Assembly: GCF_005771495.1 (NCBI RefSeq) | Contig: NZ_VAUW01000002.1 | Coordinates: forward strand, 186,001-250,000 | Source: Maribacter sp. ACAM166 | GTDB lineage: Bacteria > Bacteroidota > Bacteroidia > Flavobacteriales > Flavobacteriaceae | Length of the DNA: 64,000 bases | Reading direction: 5' to 3' | In this document: positions 26,394 through 59,231 of the stretch, piece after piece | How positions within the stretch are numbered: the first letter of the stretch is position 1 | Layout of the letters: each line of letters starts with the position of its first letter | Position numbers and translations under genes: made by a program | The notes under the pieces: model-generated | Seen by the model: the letters and a program-made list of their open reading frames with translations, nothing else | Databases searched by the model: none | Told to the model about the DNA's origin: nothing

Positions 26394-28139
<1,746 letters not shown>

Positions 28140-56139: not shown

Positions 56140-56595
56140 GTGGATACATTAAGTTATAAGACCGTTTCGGCCAACAGAACAACTGTAAACAAAGAGTGGT
56201 TATTGGTAGATGCCGAAGGAGAAACATTAGGACGCTTGGCTTCCAAGGTTGCCTATTTGTTGAGAGGAAAACATAAACCAAATTTCACTCCACATGTAGA
56301 TTGTGGTGATAATGTGGTTATTATCAACGCTGAGAAAATTGTTCTTTCCGGAAACAAATGGTCTAGCAAGGTATATTTAAGATATACCGGTTATCCAGGT
56401 GGTCAGCGTACTACTTCCGTAAAACAACTTTTGGATAAAAACCCAGAAGGTATACTTGAAAAAGCTATAAAAGGAATGCTACCTAAAACAAGATTAGGTG
56501 CAGAACTTTTTAGAAACTTAAAAGTTTACGCAGGTACTACTCACGGACAGGAAGCACAAAAACCTACTGTAGTTAATTTAAAAGAGATTAAATAA
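56140..56595 (+). CDS. rplM: 50S ribosomal protein L13
   Basis: A 151-residue ribosomal protein that binds 23S rRNA early in large-subunit assembly. Diagnostic segments are [46 protein letters not shown] and MLPKTRLG. The start is GTG, preceded by no usable ATG; the length fits the Bacteroidota form. It is followed after one base by rpsI, the standard L13-S9 pair, under the strong promoter at 56061-56091. Confidence 0.97.
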
Positions 56596-56596
56596 G

Positions 56597-56983
56597 ATGG
56601 ACGTTATTCATAAAATTGGCCGTAGAAAAACTGCCGTTGCAAGAGTATATATTTCTGATGGAAATGGTGATATCACCATTAACAATAAAGATTTTAATGT
56701 ATATTTTCCAACAGCTACACTTCAATATAAAGTAAAACAACCTTTTACCTTAACTGAAAGCTTAGACACTTACAATGTAAAAGTAAATGTTTACGGTGGT
56801 GGTATGACAGGTCAAGCAGAAGCTATACGTCTTGCACTAGCTAGAGCAATGTGTGAAATTGATGCTGAAAATAGAATTATCTTAAAACCAGAAGGTTTAT
56901 TAACAAGAGATCCAAGAATGGTGGAACGTAAGAAATTCGGTCAGAAGAAAGCCCGTAAGAAATTCCAATTCTCGAAACGTTAA
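56597..56983 (+). CDS. rpsI: 30S ribosomal protein S9
   Basis: A 128-residue small-subunit protein whose C-terminal tail reaches the P-site tRNA. The sequence starts IHKIGRRKTAVARVYI and ends with the conserved basic tail KKFGQKKARKKFQFSKR. The central region, YGGGMTGQAEAIRLALARAM, is typical. It is co-transcribed with rplM (one-base gap) and followed by a terminator. Confidence 0.98.
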   Translation: MDVIHKIGRRKTAVARVYISDGNGDITINNKDFNVYFPTATLQYKVKQPFTLTESLDTYNVKVNVYGGGMTGQAEAIRLALARAMCEIDAENRIILKPEGLLTRDPRMVERKKFGQKKARKKFQFSKR

Positions 56984-57219: not shown

Positions 57220-58338
57220 ATGGCGAGAGTCGAAGTAAAACAACTATTAGAAGCAGGTGTACATTTTGGACACCTAACAAGAAAGTGGAATCCAAACATG
57301 GCTCCTTACATCTACATGGAGCGTAACGGTATTCACGTTATCAATCTTTACAAAACAGTTGCAAAATTAGACGAGACCAATGAGGCTCTTAGCAAAATTG
57401 CAGCATCAGGTAGAAAAATACTTTTCGTTGCTACCAAAAAACAAGCAAAAGACATCGTTGCTGAAAAAGCTGCAAATGTAAATATGCCTTACATCACAGA
57501 AAGATGGCCAGGTGGTATGTTGACCAATTTCGTTACCATTCGTAAAGCGGTAAAGAAAATGGCTACAATTGATCGTATGAAGAAAGATGGTACATTTCTT
57601 ACGCTGTCTAAAAAAGAAAGACTTCAAGTAGATCGTTTACGTGCAAAATTGGAAAAAAATCTTGGTTCTATTTCTGAAATGACACGTTTACCAGGTGCAT
57701 TATTTATTGTTGATACAATGAGAGAGCACATCGCTGTTAAAGAAGCACAGAAATTAAACATTCCAATCTTTGCAATGGTTGATACAAACTGTGATCCTAG
57801 AGATGTAGATTATTTGATACCATCTAACGATGATGCTTCAAAATCTATTGATATCATTATGACCGAAGTAACCAACGCTGTTGCCGAAGGTCTTGCCGAA
57901 CGTAAGTCTGAGAAAGGTGATGCAGCTGAAGGTAAATCTGAAAGCAAAAAAGAAAAAGCTCCTAAGAAAAAGGAAGTTGTAGAGACTCCAGAACCAACCC
58001 CAGCTCCAGTTGTTGATAAAGTTCCTAATGTTGAAGTAGATGTTGAGGCGACTCAAAAAGCAGTTGCTGAAGATGCGAAAGCGGAAGCGGATGATTTAAC
58101 AAAAGTTGAAGGAATTGGACCTAAAGCAGCAGAAGCATTAGTTGCTGCAGGTATTTCTACTTATACTGACCTTTCAAAAGGAAATGCAGATAAGATAAAA
58201 GAAATCTTAACAGAAGCTAGTTCTAGAATGGCACATTTGGATCCAACTTCTTGGCCAAAGCAAGCAAAAATGGCTGCTGATGGTAAATGGGATGAGCTTA
58301 AAGAATGGCAAGAAAACACTAAAGGTGGTGTAGAATAA
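57220..58338 (+). CDS. rpsB: 30S ribosomal protein S2 with C-terminal helix-hairpin-helix extension
   Basis: A 372-residue protein. Residues 1 to about 230 are a normal S2 (EAGVHFGHLTRKWNPNM, ERWPGGMLTNF, DTNCDPRDVDYLIP). This is followed by a charged Lys/Glu/Pro linker (about 228-288) and an added helix-hairpin-helix module at 291-372 (TKVEGIGPKAAEALVAAGI, SWPKQAKMAADGKW). E. coli S2 ends near residue 241, so about 130 residues are extra. The same module occurs at the end of ActC in this window. The extension has the same codon style and sits in one uninterrupted frame. S2 joins the 30S subunit late and helps dock S1 in proteobacteria. tsf follows 68 bases later, the standard rpsB-tsf pair. 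Confidence 0.97.
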   Translation: MARVEVKQLLEAGVHFGHLTRKWNPNMAPYIYMERNGIHVINLYKTVAKLDETNEALSKIAASGRKILFVATKKQAKDIVAEKAANVNMPYITERWPGGMLTNFVTIRKAVKKMATIDRMKKDGTFLTLSKKERLQVDRLRAKLEKNLGSISEMTRLPGALFIVDTMREHIAVKEAQKLNIPIFAMVDTNCDPRDVDYLIPSNDDASKSIDIIMTEVTNAVAEGLAERKSEKGDAAEGKSESKKEKAPKKKEVVETPEPTPAPVVDKVPNVEVDVEATQKAVAEDAKAEADDLTKVEGIGPKAAEALVAAGISTYTDLSKGNADKIKEILTEASSRMAHLDPTSWPKQAKMAADGKWDELKEWQENTKGGVE

Positions 58339-58406: not shown

Positions 58407-59231
58407 ATGGCAAAGATTACAGCTGCAGAAGTTAATAGGTTAAGAAAAACAACTGGTGCAGGAATGATGGATTGCAAAAAAGCCTTAGTAGAAGCTGAAG
58501 GTGATTTTGAAAGTGCAATTGAAATTCTTCGTAAAAAAGGTCAAAAAGTTGCAGCAAAAAGAGCCGACAGAGATTCTTCTGAAGGTGCTGCAATCGCAAA
58601 AGTTAGTGAAGATCACACGAATGGTGTTATCATCTCCCTTAATTGTGAAACCGATTTTGTAGCTAAAAATGAAACTTTTGTTACGTTAGCAACAGAATTA
58701 GCAGACTTGGCAATCAATTTTGATTCAAAAGAAGCTTTTTTGACTGCAGATTTTAAAGGCATGACTGTTCAAGAAAAGCTTATCGAACAAACTGGTGTTA
58801 TCGGCGAGAAAATTGAAATTGGAGGTTTTGAAACATTAAGTGCGCCTTTCGTTGGCTCATATATTCATGCTGGTAATAAAATTGCAGTTTTAACTGGACT
58901 TTCAGCGGCAGTTAATGGCGCAGAGGAAGTAGCTAAAGATGTTTCTATGCAAGCAGCAGCTATGAACCCAGTTGCTTTGAACGAAGACGGTGTAAATCAA
59001 TCGGTGATAGATAAAGAAATCGAGATTGCAAAAGATCAGTTACGTCAAGAAGGAAAGCCTGAAGCAATGTTAGAAAATATCGCAAAAGGTAAATTAAAGC
59101 GTTTCTTCAAAGACAACACCTTGGTGAATCAAGATTTCATCAAAGACAGCAAACAAAGTGTTTCCCAATATGTAAAATCAGTTGACTCCAACTTAGAAGT
59201 TACGGGTTTCAAAAGGGTTGCATTAGGTTAA
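58407..59231 (+). CDS. tsf: Elongation factor Ts
   Basis: A 274-residue nucleotide-exchange factor that regenerates EF-Tu-GTP. The N-terminal UBA-like domain reads VNRLRKTTGAGMMDCKKALVEAEGD. The core contains SLNCETDFVAKNETF, the segment that contacts EF-Tu, followed by a C-terminal dimerisation-type domain ending QSVSQYVKSVDSNLEVTGF. Length matches the family. It is co-transcribed with rpsB and followed by a strong terminator. Confidence 0.98.
   Translation: MAKITAAEVNRLRKTTGAGMMDCKKALVEAEGDFESAIEILRKKGQKVAAKRADRDSSEGAAIAKVSEDHTNGVIISLNCETDFVAKNETFVTLATELADLAINFDSKEAFLTADFKGMTVQEKLIEQTGVIGEKIEIGGFETLSAPFVGSYIHAGNKIAVLTGLSAAVNGAEEVAKDVSMQAAAMNPVALNEDGVNQSVIDKEIEIAKDQLRQEGKPEAMLENIAKGKLKRFFKDNTLVNQDFIKDSKQSVSQYVKSVDSNLEVTGFKRVALG

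Follow-up and report, generated by a model that had tools for sequence, protein, structure and literature searches.

A portable helix-hairpin-helix tail on ribosomal protein uS2 of Maribacter is found at the C-terminus of ten kinds of ribosomal protein

Introduction

Ribosomal protein uS2 of Maribacter sp. ACAM166 runs on for about 130–145 residues beyond its S2 domain, which raises the questions of what this extension is, whether it is peculiar to uS2 and what it could do on a ribosome. The gene lies in a stretch of 64,000 nucleotides, called here the window, for which an original prediction had proposed that a binding module was added to S2. We have compared the extension with the other proteins of the same genome, with those of related genomes and of other phyla, and with known structures and protein models, and we weigh below the functions that the results allow.

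Results

The uS2 protein of the window ends in a folded helix-hairpin-helix domain

The S2 domain is complete in the window's uS2, with residues 9–224 covering model positions 1–216 of 216 (Pfam); the protein scores 302.9 bits with TIGR01011 (cut-off, 76.3) and is the sole S2 match of the whole genome (Table 1). The S2 domain thus ends at residue 224 of 372, which bears out the about 130 extra residues noticed originally. Residues 291–329 match the helix-hairpin-helix (HhH) model HHH_5 (PF14520) with 32.4 bits, above the Pfam gathering score of 27. The context of rpsB is ordinary, and we take its neighbours to be rplM, rpsI and tsf, names recognised from the sequence. The nearest tail in a scan of named genomes, which may omit records of the window's own genome, is 92% identical and belongs to a Maribacter MAG (best 80 of at least 453 relatives).

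Table 1. Positions in the window of the tailed proteins, their parts and the neighbours of rpsB
Feature	Position	Strand	Basis
NrfD-family protein, 581 aa, short-type tail at end	26394..28139	-	Pfam NrfD
ActC short-type HhH tail, residues 512-579	26403..26606	-	PRK12373 match, E 2e-18
rplM (uL13) and rpsI (uS9), upstream of rpsB, ordinary context	56140..56983	+	ORF list
rpsB, uS2 with C-terminal HhH tail, 372 aa	57220..58338	+	ORF bounds exact, ATG start
uS2 core, residues 1-224	57220..57891	+	Pfam Ribosomal_S2 9-224, 302.2 bits
Charged low-complexity linker, residues 225-288, predicted disordered	57892..58083	+	AF2 pLDDT, length variation
HhH tail domain, residues 289-372	58084..58335	+	HHH_5 match 291-329; AF2; purifying selection
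tsf (EF-Ts), downstream of rpsB	58407..59231	+	ORF list

The window's uS2 stays below the curated scores of the NCBIfam models PRK12311 (S2 with C-terminal extension; 279.7 versus 526 bits) and NF051451 (S2 sunset domain variant; 263.5 versus 710 bits), and we discarded the sunset variant, the isolated tail having no NF051451 match at E 0.001. A leader RNA regulating the fusion was likewise discarded, tRNA being the only Rfam match in the window at gathering scores.

AlphaFold2 (AF2) folded the tail alone (86 aa, 61 sequences) into six helices with a mean pLDDT of 85.7. In the full-length model the linker (residues 233–288) has a pLDDT <50, and ten-residue blocks between residues 291 and 370 average 70–90; the S2 core is poorly modelled in this run (27 sequences; whole mean 61.5), so we used the model only for the disordered linker and the independent domain. 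Together with the HHH_5 match, these results agree with the HhH module behind a charged linker that had been proposed. The GhG hairpin of the tail model is preceded by a short helix (7–9) and followed by a helix at 15–23; it is intact in all 108 distinct ribosomal tails compared, a set without bL20, and reads GhGPK in 99 of them.

Solved folds near the tail model include Pol theta (Z 8.9), RadA (Z 7.7), Pol beta (Z 4.7) and the NusA AR2 domain (Z 7.2), where Z below about 8 (13 for helical bundles) may reflect a common arrangement only. Foldseek with the tail model returned nothing at E 0.001 or better; a viral origin of the domain was dismissed after the search of BFVD gave no match at that threshold. 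The mean net charge of ribosomal tails is −4.2 for uS2 (−5 in the window), −2.1 for bL21, −5.3 for bS1 and −7.3 for bL17, and that of three tails labelled phasin by eye is +0.7. As judged by eye, the long-type tails of loci L106–L185 nearly all end in W-D-E-L-x-x-W/L-Q-D-x-x-x-G-G, no more than a few residues from the C-terminus.

Selection maintains the tail

We compared 27 tailed S2 genes, that of the window and those of 26 named loci. Their tails have 82–86 residues and a median pairwise identity of 76.8%, their linkers 37–85 residues and a median identity of 32.6%, and the cores a median pairwise identity of 90.8%. Of the 351 pairs, those with dS between 0.2 and 2 numbered 124 for the core, 127 for the linker and 58 for the tail; their median dN/dS was 0.04, 0.46 and 0.09, respectively, values that are rough because many pairs are saturated in dS. 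For the near relative L106, the dN/dS components were 0.006/0.475 in the core, 0.149/0.635 in the linker and 0.032/0.792 in the tail. The ratio of 0.09 in the tail against 0.46 in the linker indicates that the tail is maintained by purifying selection while the linker drifts. A chance likeness of low-complexity tails is excluded by this selection and by the near-fixed tail length.

The genome contains four copies of the tail

Four proteins of the genome carry the HhH tail: uS2, bL21, ActC and a membrane-type protein. Searching the genome with the S2 tail retrieved bL21 (57% identity) and a protein of 193 residues whose N-terminal part has a hydrophobic segment (40%). The NrfD-family protein of Table 1, which we take to be ActC of Alternative Complex III, is far less similar, its end having 25% identity to the S2 tail and E 0.13 in a single-sequence whole-genome search. 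Nevertheless, the ends of uS2 and ActC match the same NCBIfam models (NuoE PRK12373, L21 PRK12278, S2 PRK12311 and PhaH) and align through D-L-x-K-V-x-GIGP ... W-x-x-QA. We place ActC in the tail family because the NuoE model PRK12373 hits both ends (for ActC, Table 1; for S2, E 3.5e-7), a route independent of our own profile; the kinship of both ends, asserted in the original prediction, therefore stands, although the likeness is distant. That profile, A2, has four rows and gives strong scores to all four copies, a partly circular result because it was built from those same copies. The HHH_5 gathering score (27) is reached by bL21 (34.7), whereas ActC (13.9) and the membrane-type protein (16.7) fall short.

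Beside the membrane-type tail protein, the genome (locus L004, contig C57, 2154-2923) shows a pair of short ORFs (108 and 120 aa); its relatives L053 and L044 have an OmpA-family gene of about 305 aa at the same place. The gene may be broken or misassembled here, and the 108 aa ORF had no OmpA match in Pfam.

Distribution in Bacteroidota and in the family of the window

A2 matched 53 of 296 Bacteroidota genomes at E 0.001, and we classified the hosts in 38 of them, the other 15 having mostly weak matches, with G013, G034 and G254 as exceptions. For domains of at least 55 residues, and aside from some further matches of the same genomes, these 38 genomes hold 36 tail proteins of TM type (the label given by default to hosts that we did not recognise; as judged by eye, most begin with a hydrophobic stretch), 13 bL21, 11 ActC (one assigned by frame length alone) and five uS2, besides three bL27, two bS1, two bL17, two glycogen-binding-domain proteins and one uL16. 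A tailed uS2 was thus found in 5 of the 296 genomes at E 0.001, with hosts classified in 38 of the 53 matching ones.

In the family of the window, the 61-row profile A3 had matches at E 0.001 in 113 of 139 genomes (138 genera). Host calls, made from matching places and reading frames, put it on uS2 in at least 25 genomes, on bL21 in at least 71 (short-type bL21 tails, as in G103 and G118, lie outside the 71), on both in at least 12 and on either in at least 84; among the matches listed, neither was tailed in 55 of the 139. An association of both tails was rejected, the 12 genomes with both comparing with 12.8 expected from 25 and 71 of 139. The original prediction had staked itself on HhH homology and on the presence of the tail in closely related S2 proteins. 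HhH homology is evident, and G653, the sole genome of the same genus sampled, has the tail; within the family, the second expectation holds for those 25 or more genomes but the tail was not found on uS2 in the rest, among the matches listed.

In five of the 139 family genomes (G612, G649, G681, G694 and G709) the copy on bL21 was the only one found at E 0.001, and a single copy on one ribosomal protein was also all that was found in G002, G045, G103 and G218; G231, likewise counted as single-copy, has one further unclassified match. These calls were made with a long-type profile, which may miss divergent short-type copies. The named tailed loci include the genera Maribacter, Muricauda, Flagellimonas, Robiginitalea, Zeaxanthinibacter and Arenibacter, which points to Flavobacteriaceae as the family sampled. 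Loci L098 (G118) and L099 (G103), from the same family as the window, have a bL21 tail of the short type, whereas that of most tailed relatives is long-type.

The tail ends many different proteins in several phyla

Ten kinds of ribosomal protein, belonging to both subunits, carry the tail at their C-terminus: uS2, bS1, bS16, uL15, uL16, bL17, bL19, bL20, bL21 and bL27. Non-ribosomal hosts include RNA polymerase beta' (one genome), ABC ATPases and PHB depolymerase, as well as NuoE and phasins, recognised by motif. A special link of the tail with S2, implied in the original prediction, is therefore not supported: the same tail sits on 50S proteins, on RNA polymerase and on proteins of transport, respiration and storage.

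Our scan of named genomes used one peptide pattern and kept, from at least 453 confirmed relatives, the 80 most similar to the S2 tail, which biases its host counts to uS2 and bL21: bL21 28, uS2 26, bS1 5, bL27 4, bL17 2, ActC 2 and other 13. On reading, the last group contains four bS16, bL19, uL15, a further bL27 and a bL21 fragment; the rest are RNA polymerase beta' with three copies, glutamine synthetase, a TM protein, a small unplaced protein and a fragment. Pfam confirmed one example each of S2, S16, S1, L15, L16, L17, L19, L20, L21, L27, Rpb1 domains and Gln-synt, and also GH57, PHB depolymerase, two ABC ATPases, AMPK-CBM and NrfD. The bL19, uL15, uL16, bL20 and RNA polymerase hosts come from one assembly each, and bins can be mixed. 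The tail ends no more than 30 residues from the C-terminus in 144 of 145 rows, which comprise the 80 named loci and 65 later rows, some repeating one gene, apart from the Bacteroidota survey set.

Matches extend to other phyla. Of 299 genomes from the phylum of locus L149 (record title, Gammaproteobacteria), 96 had a match at E 0.001; in the part of the list examined, the tails are mostly of the short type and sit on NuoE, bL21, TM proteins, phasins, ABC ATPases and, twice, uS2, the hosts being assigned from motifs or by eye. The phylum of L137 (record title, Pirellulaceae) had matches at 1e-6 in 9 of 199 genomes, and its sampling yielded the bL20 host (L246) and a coiled-coil-like protein (L248). 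Fusion to RNA polymerase was rejected as a common pattern: it appears in one genome, G297, and six of the nine matches of this phylum are unclassified. In that genome (L137:76-3249, contig C213), RNA polymerase beta' ends in three HhH tails. Tandem copies occur at L081, L082 and L163, the last being a bL27 of 501 aa from an uncultured Saprospiraceae with three tail copies and a linker of DADAKAKA repeats. In contrast to the acidic ribosomal tails, that of the glutamine synthetase at L167:1888-3243 has a net charge of +9, and its linker is basic too.

uS2 and bL21 acquired the tail repeatedly

In a quick tree of 214 tails, from which the gene fragment L176 was removed, a branch of support 99 parts long-type from short-type domains, and at least 62 host changes are needed; the alignment is short and 103 of the 207 inner branches stay open. 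The window-type uS2 tails (27 rows, support 99) are nested in a group (support 96) that also holds nine bL21 tails, which looks like a transfer of the tail between the two proteins. The window's uS2 tail falls in the long-type group and the three phasin-labelled tails (by eye) in the short-type one, PhaH itself being outside the tree.

AU tests across phyla covered 98 of the 214 tails, hand-chosen, with groups defined by host, yet after the first tree was known. A single clade was rejected for the 13 uS2 tails (p 0.001), to which the L149 phylum contributes two, and for the 19 bL21 tails (p 8e-7); it was not rejected for the 12 ActC tails (p 0.154). Our firm conclusion is that uS2 and bL21 acquired such tails more than once. 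Within Bacteroidota, one uS2 clade was not rejected (p 0.23; 67 rows, five divergent bL21 rows and duplicates being left out). The tree suggests that the uS2 tail of Arenibacter arose independently, as a second origin, but in view of this test we did not retain the idea.

Relation to known domains and proteins

PhaH is a phasin of Caulobacter crescentus, reportedly described by Salinas et al. in 2023. The isolated S2 tail matches the C-terminal part (168–212 of 234) of the NCBIfam model PhasinPhaH (NF045508) with E 1.7e-5. According to the account of PhaH in a review (PMC13052382), its N-terminus binds PHB granules and its C-terminus binds DNA nonspecifically via an HhH domain, the granules being spread along the nucleoid; PhaH is also covered in PMC12028471. 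PhaH resembles the tailed uS2 in being a protein with a function of its own that ends in an HhH domain. It differs in that its host is a granule protein, and the phasin-labelled tails (by eye) are short-type and near neutral, whereas the S2 tail is long-type and acidic and has an extra conserved GKWDELKxWQ helix.

The models PRK12311 (S2), PRK12278 (L21) and PRK12373 (NuoE) show the same domain at the same position of the same hosts, and all three are matched in their C-terminal region by the isolated tail, but they are whole-protein models that name the host only; none of the NCBIfam matches of the tail and host proteins is a model dedicated to the tail domain. A PDB search also matched the S2 tail to Protein-O of the Dinoroseobacter shibae RC-LH1 (8yy9), whose C-terminal domain is described as lying on a long flexible loop, invisible in cryo-EM, as present on NuoE, an ATP synthase subunit and an annotated endonuclease, and as obscure in function (PMC12079452). 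Its host, however, is a membrane protein, and the section of that paper on the domain does not mention ribosomal proteins. HHH_5, RadA, Pol theta and NusA AR2 have fold class and hairpin motif in common with the tail, although the HhH domains of the last three are parts of DNA-repair or transcription proteins and not portable tails. A COG3743 match is recorded on Halomonas PhaC2 in the relevant text of PMC8686332.

Ends of this kind were therefore already known on S2, L21 and NuoE from NCBIfam, as was a domain common to NuoE and other proteins from the section cited (PMC12079452). Among the open-licence PMC papers listed, we found none, judged by title and abstract, on HhH tails of ribosomal proteins or on their spread to ten, and what we did not find in print is the grafting of the same tail onto ten kinds of ribosomal protein.

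Discussion

What could such a tail do on a ribosome? That it binds nucleic acid or protein, as originally proposed, is plausible from its HhH homology. Our preferred reading, which we hold tentatively, is that the uS2 tail is a portable C-terminal HhH tether to a shared partner, likeliest nucleoid DNA. The disordered linker would let the folded domain reach out from the ribosome and hold a partner present in every cell, not necessarily another copy of the domain. The likeliest partner would be nucleoid DNA, bound without sequence specificity, and ribosomes might thereby be kept near the chromosome or spread along it. We favour DNA by analogy, because the homologous PhaH is reported to bind it via its HhH C-terminus (PMC13052382, in its account of PhaH). 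A universal partner is favoured because some genomes showed a single, ribosomal copy at our thresholds, so that a partner of the same family seems unneeded. Likewise, since ten proteins of both subunits carry the tail, attachment seems to matter and position on the ribosome does not. A tether is also suggested by the folded tail behind a disordered linker, by a dN/dS that is low in the tail and higher in the linker, and by the C-terminal position of nearly all copies. The near folds, including DNA-repair HhH domains, and the intact GhG hairpin speak for a DNA tether; the acidic ribosomal tails, unfavourable for nonspecific DNA binding, speak against it, as do NusA AR2 among the near folds and a Foldseek search without a match at E 0.001. 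NusA AR2 binds proteins. Nor does nucleoid attachment obviously explain the membrane-type and ABC-transporter copies.

The acidic tails and the NusA AR2-like fold would suit a protein docking tag, in which the domain binds itself, a membrane-anchored sister beside the OmpA-family gene, or an adaptor, and in which tailed ribosomes and respiratory complexes would collect at the membrane or form clusters. Of the 22 classified Bacteroidota genomes in which a ribosomal protein is tailed, 17 have a membrane-type copy (ActC, or TM by eye); the TM copy adjoins an OmpA-family gene in L053 and L044, both loci checked by Pfam, and a similar gene of 272–306 aa by eye in L038, L045, L052, L055, L059 and L075; and there are the tandem copies. 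However, no sister was found in the single-copy genomes (the five with bL21 and the four others named above), eight genomes of group g2, presumably Flavobacterium, have a TM copy without a ribosomal one, and the TM copy of L071 has no OmpA-like neighbour. We consider docking unlikely and rank it second, after the DNA tether.

A role within the ribosome, with the tail binding rRNA, mRNA or a factor and tuning assembly or initiation, is improbable. uS2 sits near the mRNA platform and bS1, the HhH hairpin is intact and the tail is conserved, all of which would fit; but 30S and 50S proteins alike carry this domain, as do many proteins outside the ribosome, and 55 of 139 family genomes have no tail on uS2 or bL21 among the matches listed. 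The contact with rRNA, or the part in initiation without Shine-Dalgarno pairing, that had been suggested for the tail thus finds no support, given also the rarity of tailed uS2 in Bacteroidota (5 of 296 genomes). Two PDB chains, 9oy8_H (uS2, 254 aa) and 7jil_R (bL21, 147 aa), are too short for a tail; we take them to be from the Flavobacterium johnsoniae ribosome, whose density therefore cannot decide the role of the tail, and the text seen of a paper on that ribosome (PMC9976891) does not name uS2. Least probable of all is that the tail is largely a passenger, encoded by a 3'-end segment that is mobile or duplicates easily and is tolerated at exposed C-termini. The many hosts, the 62 or more host changes on a tree with half its forks open and the patchy presence across genomes would be expected of a passenger. 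Against this stand the purifying selection and near-fixed tail length while the linker drifts, the rejection of single clades for uS2 and bL21, i.e. the same hosts taken more than once, and a copy on uS2 or bL21 in at least 84 of 139 family genomes.

Bacterial ribosomes may be held actively to the nucleoid or the membrane, or size and crowding alone may sort them. The tail, added to ribosomes repeatedly through at least ten different proteins, can be removed without touching the ribosome core, which opens the question of ribosome placement to experiment in marine Flavobacteriia that can be cultured and in bacteria of other groups. For annotation, the results warn that long S2, L21 and NuoE proteins have one domain in common. 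It is conceivable, if doubtful, that the HhH domain is a general addressing tag that, by hopping among C-termini, ties ribosomes, RNA polymerase, respiratory complexes and granules to a common scaffold. Were this so, the scaffold would be the nucleoid or a membrane-anchored hub, and several phyla would have independently built anchored ribosomes.
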